Part shown: positions 56,833 through 64,000 of the stretch, piece after piece
Layout: every line of letters starts with the position of its first letter
Numbering within the stretch: position 1 is the stretch's first letter
Source: Planktomarina temperata RCA23
GTDB lineage: Bacteria; Pseudomonadota; Alphaproteobacteria; Rhodobacterales; Rhodobacteraceae
Assembly (NCBI RefSeq): GCF_000738435.1
Contig: NZ_CP003984.1
Coordinates: forward strand, 372,001 to 436,000
Length of the DNA stretch: 64,000 nt
Direction of reading: 5' to 3'
The notes under the pieces: generated by a model
Told to the model about the DNA's origin: nothing
The model's database searches: none
The model's input: only the letters and a program-made list of their open reading frames with translations
Made by a program: the position numbers and the translations under genes

Positions 56833-56908
56833 GCCCCTATAGCTCAGCTGGTAGAGCAACTGATTTGTAATCAGTAGGTCCGCGGTTCGAGTCCGTGTGG
56901 GGGCACCA
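56833..56908 (+). tRNA. tRNA-Thr (anticodon TGT)
   Basis: Complete 76-nt cloverleaf: acceptor GCCCCTA pairs with TGGGGGC (one T-G pair), D arm AGCTCAGCTGGTAGAGC, anticodon stem CTGAT/ATCAG with loop TTTGTAA (anticodon TGT), T arm with GGTTCGAGTCC, discriminator A and encoded CCA. Its 3' end serves as the integration site of the downstream island. Confidence 0.95.
56893..56908 (+). repeat. att core at the 3' end of tRNA-Thr (left)
   Basis: CCGTGTGGGGGCACCA, the last 16 bases of the tRNA. An inverted copy is at 59061-59076. The sequence to the left differs between the copies, which marks this edge of the crossover region. Confidence 0.7.
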
Positions 56909-56960
56909 TAATCCAAGCCAATGTATTGTAATACCTTACTAAACTGAAGTTTTTAGTGAG

Positions 56961-56970
56961 CCGTAGACCA
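56961..56970 (-). repeat. TGGTCTACGG repeat (left arm)
   Basis: Minus-strand copy of the motif, directly at the integrase start codon. Other copies, all on the plus strand, are at 58999-59008, 59167-59176 and 59179-59188. Repeats of this kind near an att site often are arm-type binding sites of the integrase. Confidence 0.5.
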
Positions 56971-58124
56971 TGCTGGCAACCAAATCTAATAGTTATACGT
57001 TCCAAAAAGATGGAATCTGGTATTTCTCCCGTAGAGTACCTGCTGATTTACGGCGGCATTATAGAACAGGCAGAATTGCTTATTCTTTGAGGACTAAGTC
57101 TGTCAGGGATGCCCGTATTAGGGCGATGAGTGATGCTGCTAAGTTAGATAGGCATTGGCATATCCTGCGGATCTCTTCTGATGATTTACCAGGCAAGCAT
57201 TTGCTCACTGACGCTGTGCAGGCGCCCGTCGCTGAGCTTGCTGCCAAAGAGCATTCCCTAAAAGACGCTGTGGCTGTCTATCTACGTTTAAAGGGGGATG
57301 ATCGCCCGCCTACCTTTGAAGCTGCTGTACGGCGTTCCTGCGGCTACCTGATTGATTGCTGCGGCATGAAGGCCTTGAAAGATTACCTTCGATCCGATGC
57401 TACCAAGTTCCGTGATTATCTATTCGCTAAGGGATTAAATGGGGCTTCTGTGGCAAGGATCTTTGGTACAGTCAGGGCTGTTATAAACTTAGCCCTGAGT
57501 GAGTTTGGGCTAGCAATCGTCAACCCGTTCTCAAACGTCTACTTCAACCAAAGAGAAGGGGTAAAGAAGCGGCTGCCTGTGAAGCCTGATGATATCAAGA
57601 GGGTACAAGCTGAGTGTTATAAGGCTGATGATGAAATGCGCTGGCTGGTAGCCTTAGTCGCAGACACTGGCATCAGGTTGGCTGAGGGTGCTGGGCTCTT
57701 ACGCTCCGACTTCATCACTAAGGACGATATCCTATGCGTAAGCATCAAACCTCACCCTTGGCGCTCATTAAAGACAGCTAGCAGTGAGCGAGTAATACCT
57801 TTGGTAGGCTCAGCTAAGTGGGCCGCAGAACGAATGCTTGAACAACCCAATAGCAGTCAGTTTGCATTCCCTAAATACAACAACGGTCAGAGAACGAGTG
57901 CTAACTCTGCCAGCGCTGCCCTGAACAAGTGGCTGAAAGGTAAGATTGGCGAGGGCTATACTATGCACAGCTTCCGTCACTCCATGCGAGACAGGCTAAG
58001 GGCGGTTGAGTGTCCTAGCGACATCATAGATCAGATTGGTGGATGGCTTACCCAAGGAGTAGGAGCATCGTATGGAGAAGGCTACAGTCCAACGAATATG
58101 CAAAAGTGGCTGCTGCTTAGTTGA
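56970..58124 (+). CDS. Tyrosine-type integrase
   Basis: Site-specific recombinase that would insert and excise the island at tRNA-Thr. The N-terminal part (YTFQKDGIWYFSRRVPADLRRHY) is the arm/core-binding type seen in many island integrases. The catalytic residues are visible: Arg236 (DTGIRLAEGAGLL), His333-x-x-Arg336 (MHSFRHSMR), Trp359 and the likely nucleophile Tyr368 (GVGASYGEGY). 384 aa and complete. The first 55 codons lie in the left arm of the inverted repeat, so they exist twice. Confidence 0.93.
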   Translation: MLATKSNSYTFQKDGIWYFSRRVPADLRRHYRTGRIAYSLRTKSVRDARIRAMSDAAKLDRHWHILRISSDDLPGKHLLTDAVQAPVAELAAKEHSLKDAVAVYLRLKGDDRPPTFEAAVRRSCGYLIDCCGMKALKDYLRSDATKFRDYLFAKGLNGASVARIFGTVRAVINLALSEFGLAIVNPFSNVYFNQREGVKKRLPVKPDDIKRVQAECYKADDEMRWLVALVADTGIRLAEGAGLLRSDFITKDDILCVSIKPHPWRSLKTASSERVIPLVGSAKWAAERMLEQPNSSQFAFPKYNNGQRTSANSASAALNKWLKGKIGEGYTMHSFRHSMRDRLRAVECPSDIIDQIGGWLTQGVGASYGEGYSPTNMQKWLLLS

Positions 58125-58196
58125 ATGATCCATTAGAGGCTACTGCGCAGTGACGATATTCTTGACTTAGCAACAGTAAGGGCTTTCTTAGTCAGC

Positions 58197-58778
58197 ATGA
58201 CTGATCTCTCAATCCTGCCCTTACATGACCTAACAATTGATGAGGCCTCACGGCCTAAAGCGCCTAAGGTTGCAGCCGCCACAGATATGCACCGCCGCCA
58301 AGGTCGACAGCTTGCGGCAATTCATCGTCATTATCTGATGGAAATGGCTCAGATTGGTGCGGTATTGGAAAGGATCGAAGCGAAAGATACACCACCTGAG
58401 CACCTAAAGAAGATTGTGCTTGCACTTGATATGGCCGAAAACTTTCGAGCGTTTGGATCACTTTGTGGGCGTGAATGCAAAGTCCTGAAGTTTCATCATG
58501 ACATCGAAAGTTCAGACATGTTTCCTCGAATCGAGGCAGCAGGAGGAGGCATGTTCCAGCAGATTGTAGCCAAGCTGATTTCAGAGCACGAGGTAGTGCA
58601 TGAATTGATCATTCGCCTTGGCCGAGCCGCAGACAAGTTGGCGACAAATCCAAGCGAAGCTAACTTCATCGGTGCCTCGCAGGTATATCGAAAGCTAGAA
58701 GAGGTTGTGCGTTCTCATTTTGGCTACGAGGAAGCGGAATTAGAAGAAGCGATTGGGTATTACCTCGGGGGCATTTAA
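58197..58778 (+). CDS. Hemerythrin-like domain protein
   Basis: 193-aa helical protein, probably a di-iron hemerythrin-like sensor or carrier. Candidate ligands occur in the usual order: His43/His45 (AIHRHYLMEM), His100/His101 with Glu104 (KFHHDIESSDMFPRIE), His131/His135 (SEHEVVHELI), His174 with Glu178 (RSHFGYEEAEL). The first about 35 residues look disordered. It is cargo between the inverted repeats, with codon use like the integrase. Its role in the island is unknown; O2, NO or iron sensing would be possible. Confidence 0.7.
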   Translation: MTDLSILPLHDLTIDEASRPKAPKVAAATDMHRRQGRQLAAIHRHYLMEMAQIGAVLERIEAKDTPPEHLKKIVLALDMAENFRAFGSLCGRECKVLKFHHDIESSDMFPRIEAAGGGMFQQIVAKLISEHEVVHELIIRLGRAADKLATNPSEANFIGASQVYRKLEEVVRSHFGYEEAELEEAIGYYLGGI

Positions 58779-58828
58779 CGGCGAAGGCTGACCCTTTTAC
58801 AAGATGTAGAACGACTTGTTTGAATTCA

Positions 58829-58999
58829 CTACGCATCACTCATCGCCCTAATACGGGCATCCCTGACAGACTTAGTCCTCAAAGAATAAGCAATTCTGCC
58901 TGTTCTATAATGCCGCCGTAAATCAGCAGGTACTCTACGGGAGAAATACCAGATTCCATCTTTTTGGAACGTATAACTATTAGATTTGGTTGCCAGCAT
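58829..58999 (-). pseudogene. Truncated integrase copy (first 55 codons)
   Basis: The right arm contains the integrase start on the minus strand: ATG at 58997-58999 and 55 identical codons up to the arm's end at 58833, then GCG and a TAG stop at 58829-58831. The catalytic domain is missing. If the central segment inverted, this start would be joined to the full integrase body. Confidence 0.85.
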
Positions 59000-59076
59000 G
59001 GTCTACGGCTCACTAAAAACTTCAGTTTAGTAAGGTATTACAATACATTGGCTTGGATTATGGTGCCCCCACACGG
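58833..59076 (-). repeat. 244-bp inverted repeat, right arm
   Basis: Reverse complement of 56893-57136. It ends at the same base of the att core as the left arm (59076), after which the sequence is unrelated to the tRNA. The arms enclose 1,696 bp (57137-58832). Confidence 0.93.
59061..59076 (-). repeat. att core, inverted second copy
   Basis: Reverse complement of the last 16 bases of tRNA-Thr. Continued by non-tRNA sequence, so this site has the layout of an attP or hybrid site rather than of an intact tRNA gene. Confidence 0.7.
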
Positions 59077-59100
59077 GGATGGCTCCGCCAGTAGGCACCA
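59061..59100. other. Nested hairpin at the second att core
   Basis: Outer stem TGGTGCC/GGCACCA (59061-59067 with 59094-59100) encloses two small hairpins, CCCC-ACAC-GGGG and TGGC-TCC-GCCA. Folded single strand would be a three-way junction. It overlaps the att core on one side. Confidence 0.5.
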
Positions 59101-59569
59101 ACGCTTAGCATTAACCTTACAAAACAAGGCTACTGTCTCATTCTGGTTCCTGCAACAGGCGTAAAATGGTCTACGGTTTGGTCTACGGTAAGAACCCCGG
59201 GCATGTGCCACCCCGCCCCCTAGGGGATACCGTACATAGCTCTGACCTGCGATTGGGTTTTGGGTATCGTCAACCAGCAGCATCAGCCTGTTTAGGTCCG
59301 ACTTGGCGGTTTCATCTGTGCGGTAGGGTGCAGGCTGTATGTATGCCTCTGACACTTCGTAGGGAGCTTATGCACGATGCCTGCGGTTGTTACCCAGTAT
59401 CCCAGAATACCGTTACAGTAACACTAGAGGGCCTGTGCATGGGCCACAGGGGGGCTATGGGGTAAGTATATATGGCCTCTGACAGTGATCAGCCCTGTAG
59501 TGATGTAAACCACTATTGGTTCAGTTTCGGGTTAGATGACCGTGATTGAGTTCTTATTGTAACAAGGTC
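59077..59569. other. 493-bp non-coding stretch between attP-like site and primase gene
   Basis: Contains two TGGTCTACGG repeats (59167-59188), the palindrome GTTACAGTAAC (59412-59422), a CCTGTG/CACAGG hairpin near 59431-59448 and two GCCTCTGACA repeats (59345-59354, 59475-59484). No convincing gene. It lies at the 3' end of the primase-helicase gene and would be a reasonable place for an attachment region or replication origin. Confidence 0.5.
59167..59188 (+). repeat. Tandem TGGTCTACGG repeats (arm-type sites)
   Basis: Two direct copies of TGGTCTACGGT 12 bp apart, about 90 bp from the second att core, with a third copy at 58999-59008 inside the right arm. Likely integrase arm-binding sites. 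Confidence 0.55.
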
Positions 59570-62500
59570 CTATATAGTCTTATAGCACTTCGTTACATTA
59601 ACGGTATCACTCACTCGAAACTTAAGGCTCTGGCCCGTATGATACTCCAGCTTTAGCTCACTGATAGCACCTTCACCCCAGCCTGCTGTTAGATGCGCCA
59701 GTACTTCTGCCTCAGACCAAGGGGTGTAGATGCTGGTGGTGGGACTGCCGGAGTAATCCTTCGGGAGGTAGAGGTGACGGTGGGTGGTCTTGCGTTTTAC
59801 TTTGGCTTTGAAGGTGGCTATTTGGGTGGCTGTTCTGACGAGTGTGGGCAGTTGAGTTAATAGCCGCTTGGGATCAGAGGCTTTGGAACGGTCAGGCTGA
59901 AAGAGCATACGTGCTTTAGCCCCAGCATACCCTAAATCAGACCTCATCTTCTCCAATCCTAATGGTGTCAGAGGTAAGTCACCTGTTTTGATTAGTTCCA
60001 TTTCTAGTCGGTCAGGCATCAAGTCGTTGAACTCAATCAGGTGATCTACTGGCATCTCGACAGGTAGGTTCGATAGCAAGAATACTCGCTTCTGATAATC
60101 AGCCCAAACTAACCTCAGTCTGGCTATAGCTTGTACAGTCTCAGCCTCCCTGATTTGCTTTTGAACTGCTTCAATGCGGGGATCACTAAATGATGGAACT
60201 GTCATAGCTGCTGGAGCATGAGGGCTACGTGCAGACAACCAATAATCAACCTGATCTAAAGGTAGGTTCTCTTTATCATCATAGCTTAGTGGATTGCCTG
60301 AGTTACCAAAGATTGCCCTCGCTTGTTGTTCGATGCCATCGATTGGTGGCTGGTTGCGGCCCGTAATAAATACAACTGATCTGTCCTCGTAAGCATTAGA
60401 ACCACGCAGGGACATGAAGTGTGCCACAGCTACACCTGCATCAAGTCTAGGGTGATCTCGTAGGAACTCACATAAATCTTTATTTCCCACCACTAGGGGG
60501 CTGTCGCCTGCCGACACCCATTCATTTAGGATTGAGATTAAGCTGGCTAAGTCATTGTGGCGAGCATCATAGGTTGGTTCTGACAGGTTCTCTTGTTCTG
60601 GTCCGATCTTACTGTTCCAGAAGTTTTTACTGCCAGTACGATCATGTACCTGACTGACCACAGCTAATTGGTGAACATCAATCCGATGATATTGCAGGGC
60701 TGGTAGATACGCTTCTGTGATTATGGGATCAGCCGTAGCATCTAAGTAAAGCACTGGCGCAGACCGTGTCACTCGAATGGGTTTGTGCTCACAGATCACA
60801 ATATCGTTCTTACGGTTGTTGTTGGGAGTTTTTCTGTTGTCGTGAACCAACTGCCCAAAGCTGTACCTACCCTGATCCTCAATCTCCCGTGCTGCGATCT
60901 CAAGCAGTTTGGTCAGGGCCTTATATTGCTTGGCGGATCTCACATTGCGGCTTTGCGTAGTATCAGCACTGAAGGGAGTAGCTGGATTTAGCCCTTCAAC
61001 CGACACGGCGTTGAACTCAAAGGCTCCAATGTCTTTGTCCCGTAGGTAGGATAGATCACCTTGATGTTTGGTTAGGCACTCTACCAGATCAAAGCCTAAA
61101 CTGGGAAGGCCTTCCAAACGAATATGCTGTGTCACATCACCCACTGGCATGGATGGCATATTGCTAACGGCAGAGGACATAAACGCCTCATCTATTATTA
61201 CCAGATCAGGCTCTGATTGGCGTTCAAATTCATTCCTGCTCAGAAACAAGGACGCATGAGTGTAAATACGGATCGTATTTTCAACGCCCAGATCATTGCC
61301 CGATTGCCTGAACTGATCCAAATAGCTGCAATTGCCAAAGAAGCTGCATTGCTCTCCTGAGGTACGGCTTAGACAGGCATTGCCATATATGCTGTGACCC
61401 TTTTCCTCCAAGTCCCTGACATAATCAGCCCTCTGACACATGATCGGGTTGGGGTATGAGTTCTGTTCTTCGTCCCATTCACCGCCTGTACGAGGATAAA
61501 CGTGAATGACCTTGGCATTGATGCCTTCTAGGCTTTGTTCCCATTCGTCAGCTAGATCATGCCTTGGCACATAGACTTCTATGGTCTGCTGGAATTTATC
61601 CTCAAGATAAGACTTCAAGTGGCTTATTGTTTGTTTGGTTTTACCTGCTCCCATAGTCAGACGGATAGCGGCTCTTGGGTTAGCGCCTTCAGCCAAGTTC
61701 TCGAAGAAGCCGCTTAGAATGGCATCAAGTTTTGATTGTGCTTCCACGGCTCCGACAAGCTTTGGGGGTTCCACCTTGCCTGCACCTGCTACAAGTATCG
61801 TTCTGTCTGAGCGAGATACAAAGCCATACGTACCGCTATCAAGTTCCTGCAGTCTTCCTCTGGCCTTTGAAGCAGCATCAGCAATCGTCCAAGCGCCACG
61901 GTCAGATACCACGCTTATATCTGCTTCTTCACAGAAACGGTTCCAGAGGGCCGCAGTCACTTGTTCTTCGCTGGGAGCGTGTTCTAGGGTGACCAACTGC
62001 TGCATGACCTGGGTGGACAGCAAGAACATAAGTTGTTCCCTACCATCGACGGCAAGACCAGTATCTGGATCACGGATAATATCGGCAGGATCAAGCAGTC
62101 CTGATTTACCACTTGTTCGTTGCTTTGAAGACCTTGAAGCGACAGCACTTCTGAAGGCTAAATCAGATGGAACCGTTACGGTTGATACTCCAGTGCCAGC
62201 TTTAAACAAGCCAGATCGATTGGGGTATGGATCAACAGCACCATCATTAAATAGAGGGTTAGCCGTCAGATGTATTTGGATGGGATTGAACATCCGCATA
62301 TCCACTGGACAGCCAGACAGCCACGCTTTCATTTCATCATCAGAACATGGACGATCTAGCCAGAACCAGAGATGCACTCTGATACCAGCCTTGATGCCCA
62401 TGCTGGATGACAAATGATACCAGCAGTCGGTAGCTTGGAACTCAGCAGGAAGCTGCTGGATTGCATATGATACCATTGCCTGTTGGTCAGACATATCACC

Positions 62501-62806
62501 ATCCCAAGAAAGGCTATCAATGTCGATCATGCACCACTGGCGGGATAATGCGGTGAAGGTTTCCTTGTTGCGAGGCACTTGGCTGCTTTTGTTCTCCGGA
62601 AGTGACCCTCTGATGATCGTATGTGTGGGATAGTCCTCAAGTCTTTGTAGCAGTACAGACAGGCTTTGAAGATCAGACACTGGCTCTTCAGATACGTTGA
62701 ACAGTTTACCAGTGGAAAATGGCTGTTGAGTTTCATCTGTGCCGCTGAAGCTTTTAACAAGGGCATGACCAGTAGCAGATGTCAGGAGTGTCATTACTTC
62801 GCCCAT
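59570..62806 (-). CDS. Predicted primase-polymerase/helicase replication protein
   Basis: 1,078-aa two-part protein. The N-terminal domain resembles archaeo-eukaryotic-type primase (PrimPol): CMIDIDS with Asp95/Asp97 as metal ligands, then YHLSSSMGIKAGIRVHLWFW. The second part is an SF2-like helicase: Walker A TMGAGKTKQ (Lys389), Walker B VIIDEAF (Asp539/Glu540), and VLYLDATADP as motif III. Between the Walker motifs four Cys (457, 478, 487, 493; ...EQCSFFGNCSY) could hold a Fe-S cluster or zinc. I chose the ATG at 62806 (GGAAAGGG upstream); 62812 and 62845 are possible. Probably the island's own replication initiator. Confidence 0.7.
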   Translation of the reverse strand: MGEVMTLLTSATGHALVKSFSGTDETQQPFSTGKLFNVSEEPVSDLQSLSVLLQRLEDYPTHTIIRGSLPENKSSQVPRNKETFTALSRQWCMIDIDSLSWDGDMSDQQAMVSYAIQQLPAEFQATDCWYHLSSSMGIKAGIRVHLWFWLDRPCSDDEMKAWLSGCPVDMRMFNPIQIHLTANPLFNDGAVDPYPNRSGLFKAGTGVSTVTVPSDLAFRSAVASRSSKQRTSGKSGLLDPADIIRDPDTGLAVDGREQLMFLLSTQVMQQLVTLEHAPSEEQVTAALWNRFCEEADISVVSDRGAWTIADAASKARGRLQELDSGTYGFVSRSDRTILVAGAGKVEPPKLVGAVEAQSKLDAILSGFFENLAEGANPRAAIRLTMGAGKTKQTISHLKSYLEDKFQQTIEVYVPRHDLADEWEQSLEGINAKVIHVYPRTGGEWDEEQNSYPNPIMCQRADYVRDLEEKGHSIYGNACLSRTSGEQCSFFGNCSYLDQFRQSGNDLGVENTIRIYTHASLFLSRNEFERQSEPDLVIIDEAFMSSAVSNMPSMPVGDVTQHIRLEGLPSLGFDLVECLTKHQGDLSYLRDKDIGAFEFNAVSVEGLNPATPFSADTTQSRNVRSAKQYKALTKLLEIAAREIEDQGRYSFGQLVHDNRKTPNNNRKNDIVICEHKPIRVTRSAPVLYLDATADPIITEAYLPALQYHRIDVHQLAVVSQVHDRTGSKNFWNSKIGPEQENLSEPTYDARHNDLASLISILNEWVSAGDSPLVVGNKDLCEFLRDHPRLDAGVAVAHFMSLRGSNAYEDRSVVFITGRNQPPIDGIEQQARAIFGNSGNPLSYDDKENLPLDQVDYWLSARSPHAPAAMTVPSFSDPRIEAVQKQIREAETVQAIARLRLVWADYQKRVFLLSNLPVEMPVDHLIEFNDLMPDRLEMELIKTGDLPLTPLGLEKMRSDLGYAGAKARMLFQPDRSKASDPKRLLTQLPTLVRTATQIATFKAKVKRKTTHRHLYLPKDYSGSPTTSIYTPWSEAEVLAHLTAGWGEGAISELKLEYHTGQSLKFRVSDTVNVTKCYKTI

Positions 62807-62909
62807 TTGCATCCCTTTCCAAACTTGGTCAGAGAACCTAAACATGGAAACTGAGAAGTACCAATAAGTGATGATCTCAAAATGAGATTAACTAGAGGCT
62901 GGGATAGCA

Positions 62910-64000
62910 GTGGCAGAACTTACAATTGATCAAGCCCTACAGCAGGCTATCGAGGCGCATAAAGCTGGTCGGGTTCAAGAGGCTGATCGCCTTTATACCG
63001 CCATTTTAAAAGCCCAGCCCAAGCATCCTGATGCGAACCACAATATGGGTGTACTGGCGGTTGGTGTTGGTAAGGTTCAGGAAGCTTTGCCGTTCTTAAA
63101 GACAGCGCTGGAAGCTAATCCAGCCACAGCACAGTTCTGGCTGAGCTACATTGACGCTTTGATTAAGCTAGATCAATTAACCGATGCAAAGGCTGTGCTG
63201 GATCAAGCCAAGAGCAAAGGTGCTAAGGGTGATGGCTTTAATAAACTGGAGCAAAGGCTGCAGGATGCTGGACAAGAGCCTCTACTGGCCAAGCAGATAG
63301 CATCTGAACCACAGCCTAAGCAGCCGAACATCCTGGACAGCCTAAAACTGGATCAAGCGATCAGTCTTGCGAAGAAGAAAGCAAAGGCAGGCTCTACTGA
63401 AGAAGCTAAACGTGTTTACCAGGATATTCTGACTAAGTTCCCCAAAAACAAACGGGCTAGTGATGGGATGAAAAGGTCAGCCGGTAAGACTGTTGGTGAA
63501 GCATCCAAAGTTCAGGACCCACCACAAGATCAATTGCAATCATTGGTTAACCTCTACAGCCAAGGGCAGCTTCAGCTGGCTCTAAAACAGGCTGAAACCT
63601 TAGTTCAACAGTTCCCACAGTCAGCCATCTTGTTCAATATCCAAGGGGCTGTACTGCAAGGCCTTAGACAACTTGATGCTTCCATAGAGGCTTACAACAA
63701 AGCTCTAGCTATCAAGCCTGATAATGCTGACGCCTACTACAACATGGGCAATGCTCTCCAAGAGCAAGGTAAGCTGGAAGAAGCTATTGAGGCCTACAAC
63801 AAGGCTCTATCACTCAAGCCTGATTATGCTGAGGCCTACAACAACATGGGCAATGCTCTCAAAGAGCAAGGTAAGCTGGAAGAGGCTATAGAGGCTCACA
63901 ACAAAGCTCTAGCCATCAAGCCTGATAATGCTGACGCCTACTACAACATGGGCAATGCTCTCAAAGAGCAAGGTAAGCTGGAAGAGGCTATAGAGGCTTA
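62910..64000 (+). CDS. TPR-repeat protein, 5' part
   Basis: Starts with GTG at 62910 and runs off the right edge (363 codons visible). MAELTIDQALQQAIEAHKAGR begins a first TPR-like block (1-80). A low-complexity Gln/Lys/Pro region follows (about 115-200), then canonical TPR units (from about 230), each about 34 aa: NADAYYNMGNALQEQGKLEE. The C-terminal domain is outside; in related proteins it may be a glycosyl- or sulfotransferase. TPRs mediate protein contact. Divergent from the primase gene with a 103-bp gap. Confidence 0.85.
   Translation, partial: MAELTIDQALQQAIEAHKAGRVQEADRLYTAILKAQPKHPDANHNMGVLAVGVGKVQEALPFLKTALEANPATAQFWLSYIDALIKLDQLTDAKAVLDQAKSKGAKGDGFNKLEQRLQDAGQEPLLAKQIASEPQPKQPNILDSLKLDQAISLAKKKAKAGSTEEAKRVYQDILTKFPKNKRASDGMKRSAGKTVGEASKVQDPPQDQLQSLVNLYSQGQLQLALKQAETLVQQFPQSAILFNIQGAVLQGLRQLDASIEAYNKALAIKPDNADAYYNMGNALQEQGKLEEAIEAYNKALSLKPDYAEAYNNMGNALKEQGKLEEAIEAHNKALAIKPDNADAYYNMGNALKEQGKLEEAIEA
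63684..63989 (+). repeat. 102-bp tandem repeats (TPR units)
   Basis: Three consecutive units starting at 63684, 63786 and 63888, a fourth starting at 63990 and cut by the window. Units 1 and 3 differ at only about four of 102 bases, mostly silent. Recent unit duplication or gene conversion is implied. Confidence 0.9.

Follow-up and report, generated by a model that had tools for sequence, protein, structure and literature searches.

We analysed a window of 64,000 nucleotides from Planktomarina temperata RCA23 (G000:C1:372001-436000), the window being the whole stretch of DNA and G000 a single-contig genome of 3,288,122 bp. Self-comparison of the sequence gave a single inverted pair, 56893-57136 versus 58833-59076 (E 5e-124), with two 100% complementary arms of 244 nt each and a spacer of 1696 nt. 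The repeat starts inside the 3' end of a tRNA-Thr(TGT) gene, and the features of the locus are as follows.

56833..56908, + strand, tRNA-Thr(TGT), the target gene of the element (ARAGORN)
56893..56908, + strand, core 1 (attL), the tRNA 3' end
56893..57136, + strand, arm 1, consisting of the core, the P region, and the first 55 integrase codons
56970..58124, + strand, tyrosine integrase, 384 aa, DUF6538 and Phage_integrase
58197..58778, + strand, hemerythrin-domain cargo gene within the integrase arc (hemerythrin Pfam match)
58832..58999, - strand, predicted 56-aa frame in arm 2, the integrase N-terminal part with most of DUF6538
58833..59076, - strand, arm 2, a perfect inverted copy of arm 1 and the P side of the inverted attP2
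59061..59076, - strand, core 2, inverted, the same as core 1
59077..59744, - strand, F2, the other half of the inverted attP2
59570..62845, - strand, putative primase/helicase-like protein, 1091 aa, cargo arc
62910..64000, + strand, TPR-sulfotransferase gene, 754 aa, continuing past the window end

The exact coordinates agree with the perfect 244-bp inverted repeat claimed by an earlier sequence-only reading, and ARAGORN and the open reading frame bear out its statement that the arms hold the tRNA-Thr 3' end and the first 55 integrase codons. The middle does contain the integrase body and a hemerythrin gene, the latter by the Pfam match. Both arms also diverge at the identical base in the tRNA core, as had been noted, with the tRNA T-loop on one side and F2 on the other. 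The suggestion that the second arm is attP-like and not a random duplication held up as well, arm 2 and F2 together making a predicted complete attP, and recombination between the arms would indeed invert DNA.

Tyrosine integrases share the conserved catalytic residues R, K, HxxR, H/W, and Y; among 11 aligned integrases, R236, K268, H333, R336, W359, and Y368 are invariant. A consensus scan, which is weak evidence, found no sigma-70-like promoter in either arm. The 1091-aa protein matches the PHROG DNA primase (4e-23) and the ResIII helicase (1.3e-3, below the cut-off), and the predicted structure of its primase region has a pLDDT of 39.5. The TPR gene contains 102-bp tandem units at window positions 63684-64000 and beyond (genome 435684-436243); its protein is 754 aa long in the window element and 664-983 aa across related elements. 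The DUF6538-like N-terminal piece in arm 2 comprises 66 aa in L069, L070, and L114 of the window's clade, 72 aa in L075, and 56 aa in the window, and the corresponding frame in a second element of this genome, in a tRNA-Leu gene, comprises 36 aa. To judge only from these open frames, a free DUF6538 peptide from arm 2 could possibly act as a regulator.

The whole element and its cores

We found that the inverted structure extends past the window: F2 with the core has an inverted copy, F1, of 97.8% identity over 686 bp (G000:C1:437187-437872), and F1 ends in core 3 at genome positions 437856-437871, the end of the element. The window element is 8979 bp (~9.0 kb) long, is integrated in tRNA-Thr, and has the order tRNA, core, P1, integrase, hemerythrin, the inverted block P2-core-F2, primase/helicase, TPR/sulfotransferase, F1, and core. 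As read from the sequence, P2-core-F2 is a complete attP lying inverted inside the element, and attL and attR together are the other one. The predicted attP1 is split in the chromosome into attL (tRNA-core-P1) and attR (F1-core), while attP2 stays whole. The inferred excised circle would carry two head-to-head attPs dividing an integrase arc from a cargo/replication arc.

Nineteen integrases had any F1-like match, and we obtained 11 complete elements (3.2-12.8 kb), selected for F1 found, after setting aside eight with short, weak, or displaced F1 matches (L066, L075, L080, L119, L120, L172, L175, and L180). On the inferred circles of these 11 F1-selected elements, two recombinase sites in long inverted repeats separate two unique arcs, and the F-core-P inverted repeat measures 267-1217 bp, with the exceptions that P2 is not shared in L169 and that F has diverged beside the core in L074. 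A direct repeat of the tRNA 3' end stands at both ends of all 11. Across the three cores, all 16 bp match in 9/11 elements and 15/16 in L171, and the exact third core of L074 was found at a separately located place. ARAGORN identified a tRNA beside core 1 in nine of the 11 and none in L070 and L171. Where the tRNA lies on the integrase side, its parts in arm 1 and arm 2 are identical in 30 of 34 cases; the cores mismatch at one base each in L119 and L122 and at three in L177, and that of L178 is out of register.

The target tRNAs include Thr, Leu, Phe, Ser, Arg, Gly, and SeC. Near-identical integrases occupy different tRNAs: those of L123 and L124 are 96% identical and lie in tRNA-Thr TGT and CGT, and those of L065 and L067 are 93% identical and lie in tRNA-Ser GGA and TGA, both cores having changed in each pair. 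If the reading proposed below is right, the elements would offer a natural setting in which to follow three core copies as they change together to a new tRNA target.

A second family integrase in G000, ~26 kb away and 86% identical, resides in tRNA-Leu(CAG). It has a perfect inverted arm of 181 bp, and the arms of the two elements are just ~85% alike; four further family integrases elsewhere in this genome are 44-56% identical. In the tRNA-Leu element (G000:C1:455983-456821), ~136 bp near the integrase 3' end are repeated downstream (83%), flanking a 132-aa ORF, the pattern that an insertion of a cassette at that 3' end would leave. In a search for an empty site of the tRNA-Ser(GGA) element, its left flank aligned with G013 and G014 at 91-93% as far as the last tRNA base, and its right flank was present in 5/20 genomes, G013 and G014 not among them. 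A dispersed sequence of ~80-200 bp (L067:1749-1953, G000:C1:2627748-2627952) adjoins attR of the tRNA-Ser(TGA) element. A query with this flank matched 13 times in G000 (counting itself), 19 times in G013, 9 times in G014, and 8 times in G019; the matches mostly cover query positions 98-302 and are 72-94% identical except for the query itself and one 48-bp piece. Two islands of one genome, L068 and G000:C1 near 449.8-450.9 kb, share a 1171-bp stretch at 99.9% identity, containing a 359-aa ORF that we take to be transposase-like. In L176 (G788:C1:1627000-1646999), a complete 4.3-kb element is followed, a short way past its attR, by the start of a second family integrase, perhaps as part of a tandem array.

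Recurrence of the inverted plan and gene content

Integrase matches were found in 13/20 genomes of the genus (the genus group of the window strain includes G013), in 52/394 at family level (E 1e-20), in 10/385 at class level (1e-50), and in 10/398 at phylum level (1e-40), with G000 counted in each; many weaker search matches are other integrases. The scored set consists of 72 stretches, namely those taken by place, L060-L064, and L134, and gave 65 integrase frames with at least 281 query positions matched; the repeat places L056-L059 and L083, partial or distant integrases (e.g., L085-L113), and L193-L195 were left out of the scoring. Of the integrases that are at least 44% identical to a row of our 11-integrase alignment, 47/55 have an inverted repeat that reaches 60 bp and pairs the integrase start with the downstream side; of those that fall below 44% to every row, 0/10 do. 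The 44% line was chosen post hoc, with the table already seen. The same inverted arms in independent genomes, named beforehand as a check by the sequence-only reading, are found. Among the eight family integrases without a 60-bp repeat, L060, L076, and L174 are short of sequence, L072, L169, and L181 have 17-23 bp, and L115 and L127 have none; L072, L115, L127, and L181 lack it despite sufficient sequence. L169 has kept core 2 and F2 and not P2, and L073, with an F copy upstream of the integrase, is at odds with the plan.

The repeat is perfect in 23/47 cases and at least 95% identical in 37/47. Twenty-four cases are minimal, with arms of 68-121 bp (15 of them perfect) that start no more than 60 bp from the integrase's last matched codon, and by comparison the window's wide arms, with cargo between them, look derived. 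The replicons G000, G622, G788, and NC_008043.1 are single-contig or circular; of the 15 family integrases on them, 14 carry a repeat that reaches 60 bp, and in 12 of these 14 the identity is 88% or more. The repeat-bearing integrases span eight alphaproteobacterial families (f1, f19, f29, f80, f96, f109, f148, and f179). On the circular megaplasmid NC_008043.1 of Ruegeria sp. TM1040, a 12.8-kb element in tRNA-Phe carries a type I restriction system between F copies of 1148 bp and 100% identity, each bearing the same BRO gene. Draft contigs frequently stop 6-175 bp beyond arm 2 (13 cases), as expected from the F repeats, and long inverted repeats beside such integrases could serve as markers of these elements in draft genomes.

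Replication-like genes of two types occur in the cargo arc of 5/11 complete elements: the window-type primase/helicase in four, and Prim-Pol and D5-type genes in L070. A tblastn search found neither type in the other six, and five proteins scanned from those six (one from L068 and two each from L134 and L176, the BRO protein in one of two scans) contained nothing replicase-like; autonomous amplification would thus at best not be universal. In a search for free circular copies, the primase/helicase matched 22 plasmid and two phage records, none with at least 80% query coverage and none with at least 60% identity, and had no relative in IMG/VR. The 32 plasmid records matched by the integrase are the TM1040 megaplasmid (56%) and distant integrases. 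In IMG/VR, the integrase found nothing as a single-protein query and six loci as an alignment query; of the best three of these six, L193 has a perfect 84-bp inverted repeat, L195 has only 17-32 bp, and L194 has none, its contig stopping 211 bp after the integrase.

Orientation of the arcs and identity of the two sites

Of the 47 repeat-bearing integrases, 34 have the tRNA beside the integrase start and one has it at the arm 2 end; no tRNA was found for the other 12. The sole case on the arm 2 side is L080:1-1500 (G002:C15), with tRNA-Leu(GAG), where the integrase arc is turned round. If both attPs served equally well and selection played no part, every second integrase should face the tRNA, an expectation that the 34:1 ratio does not fit. 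The bias argues either against an integrase arc that flips freely while in the chromosome or for strong selection on its direction.

It is the cargo arc that varies. The primase gene faces the integrase arc in the window element and in L065 (tRNA-Ser GGA), and over 5 kb at 86-90% DNA identity the cargo arc is inverted in L067 (tRNA-Ser TGA, from the same genome as L065) and in L071 (G013). A second inverted pair is L070 versus L075 (2.4 kb, 86.8%), and L068 and L074 have their cargo in like orientation. These alignments show indirectly that both cargo-arc isomers exist, the comparison being between homologous elements that occupy different sites or come from different genomes and not within one clone. 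The integrase arc, flanked mostly by the shorter P repeats, is turned in one case only.

We compared the two sites within and between elements. For the P arms, core excluded, the within-element identity equals or exceeds the best between-element value in 46/47, with L066 as the exception. Between F1 and F2 of ten elements, there are 2 differences in 2897 bp at less than 300 bp from the core and 36 in 724 bp at 600-800 bp; in 100-bp bins from the core (0-800), the counts are 1/1000, 1/997, 0/900, 20/840, 5/538, 11/500, 26/485, and 10/239. L074 was left out of the binned count, its aligned stretch beginning more than 100 bp from the core. In a fixed frame over the first 150 bp of F1 and F2, 10/11 elements show 0-1 differences and L074 shows 63. 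Between the window element and L070 there are 28-29 differences per 150 bp of F and 12 per 60 bp of P, compared with 0-1 in F and 0 in P within each of them; L114 is less clean, with its own P arms differing at 8 positions in 60 bp. Because the elements diverge from one another while the two copies within each remain nearly identical, the copies appear to exchange sequence, most strongly beside the core. Selection on each site alone cannot explain a near-identity of this kind, which points to repeated recombination centred on the cores.

Interpretation and comparison with known systems

We propose that the integrative element carries a complete attP twice, as F-core-P before the integrase and as the same F-core-P inverted behind it. 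Excision would yield a circle on which the two inverted attPs split the integrase arc from the cargo/replication arc. The integrase would then recombine attP1 with attP2 on the circle, so that one arc flips and the sites stay identical, and the element would re-integrate with its integrase directed away from the tRNA. We give this reading as a whole, a double-attP element with circle inversion between the attPs, a probability of roughly 0.6, and it seems to us rather probable that recombination between the two attPs takes place and is carried out by the integrase. Against the reading weigh the 34:1 direction bias, the diverged F of L074, the missing P2 of L169, the four integrases that lack the repeat despite sufficient sequence, the misplaced F copy of L073, and the six complete elements with neither type of replication-like gene. 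At the level of sequence, the comparisons establish the plan, its recurrence, the agreeing cores, the cargo-arc isomers, and the co-evolution of the attPs with near-identity close to the cores; the peak of identity at the core, where the integrase would be expected to cut, short P arms included, points to an exchange on the circle that is started by the integrase.

Homologous recombination alone is a possible though improbable account, in which RecA inverts and homogenises the long F1/F2 repeats, the integrase takes no part, and the second attP is a by-product. It fits the observation that the cargo arc, with its F repeats of 197-1148 bp, is the part seen both ways whereas the integrase arc is turned once, and RecA acting through F would explain why it is the cargo arc and not the integrase arc that turns up inverted. 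However, the P arms are short, 68-121 bp in the 24 minimal elements and perfect in 15, the F identity peaks at the core, where the F repeat terminates once the element is integrated, and a useless second core matching the tRNA should not survive across integrases of eight families.

The integrase of the window element is only 53-54% identical to those of the Ser-type elements, yet its cargo arc is Ser-type, with 86-89% DNA identity over 5 kb. This would suit a cassette exchange, in which the integrase swaps the cargo arc between co-resident elements through the two inverted sites. Only ~120 bp of F beside each core depart from the Ser-type match, and the swap boundary lies ~120 bp inside F at both ends and off the core; we consider cassette exchange unlikely as an explanation of the plan, and such swaps may be an effect rather than a function.

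Somewhat more doubtful is a single-strand substrate, in which the inverted copies fold single-stranded DNA of the element into a double-stranded attP in the manner of integron cassettes or CTX-type phages. The full-length F-core-P inversion on the inferred circle could let one strand form a whole attP stem, and the need for identical copies would be explained; against this, no relaxase or single-strand phage protein appeared among the few proteins scanned, and the loop would exceed 1 kb.

The sequence-only reading had proposed a chromosomal switch that turns the integrase and changes its context. The arms would permit such a flip, and L080 has its tRNA on the arm 2 side, but the 34:1 orientation bias makes this very improbable, the cargo arc being what varies; moreover, both arms of the window element carry the same sequence as far as the ATG, so that a flip would not obviously alter the context. 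Its other alternative, an assembly or amplification chimera, is rejected for the family and has a negligible probability, with nothing found in its favour for the copy in the window, since the same plan recurs in independent copies and in single-contig or circular replicons, among them the annotated circular megaplasmid NC_008043.1 with its BRO gene in two inverted copies.

For the double-attP element, a further step can be imagined: a flip while the circle replicates might set off double rolling-circle amplification of the kind known from the yeast 2-micron plasmid. By this analogy, we regard amplification of the 2-micron type as tentative, with the chances clearly against it. A slightly bolder and still less secure conjecture is that a family spread across the Alphaproteobacteria independently evolved the 2-micron strategy, its integrase serving as both integrase and flippase, the replication flip leading to double rolling-circle amplification, and recombination equalising the sites and renewing them at a new tRNA. 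If this is true, one recombinase performs two jobs, replication-coupled inversion by a site-specific recombinase exists in bacteria, and it can be explained how small carriers of cargo such as type I restriction, sulfotransferase, and hemerythrin genes, among others, could multiply and spread. To our knowledge, recombinase inversion coupled to replication as a natural copy-number system is otherwise known only from yeast plasmids, and the 2-micron plasmid is the case we know of a natural circle with two inverted tyrosine-recombinase sites in long repeats.

The hairpin sites of integron attC and CTX phages are inverted repeats that are able to fold into a recombination site; in the present elements, by contrast, the arms are whole attPs and lie more than 1 kb apart when integrated. 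We found no description of the two-inverted-attP arrangement and no mention of DUF6538 in the literature searched, most subscription papers and preprints lying outside it. The parts, tRNA islands and tyrosine integrases, are known already, and their combination is what was not found there. As in the tRNA-targeted islands outlined in the portion of PMC11476347 consulted, the integrase lies beside the tRNA and a direct repeat of the tRNA 3' end forms attL and attR, but the present elements have one more complete attP, and in it a third core that is inverted. Tycheposons, with their tRNA, tyrosine recombinase, and cargo, are likewise cargo carriers at tRNA genes, and the excerpt of PMC10872708 consulted does not mention an inverted second attP, in contrast to the elements described here.

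According to the sections consulted of PMC6594588 and PMC3147054, the yeast 2-micron plasmid is a circle with two unique arcs and 599-bp inverted repeats containing tyrosine-recombinase sites, and its flip during replication leads to double rolling-circle replication. The likeness is one of the manner of working only, and we claim no sequence kinship to Flp, Rep1/Rep2, or STB. Unlike that plasmid, the element is bacterial, integrates in tRNA genes, and has an integrase of DUF6538 and Phage_integrase, and its amplification would be hypothetical. What the element appears to have in common with the Flp/FRT system, as far as these sections describe it, is the set of inverted sites in repeats, the recombinase gene on the circle, and the two isomers.
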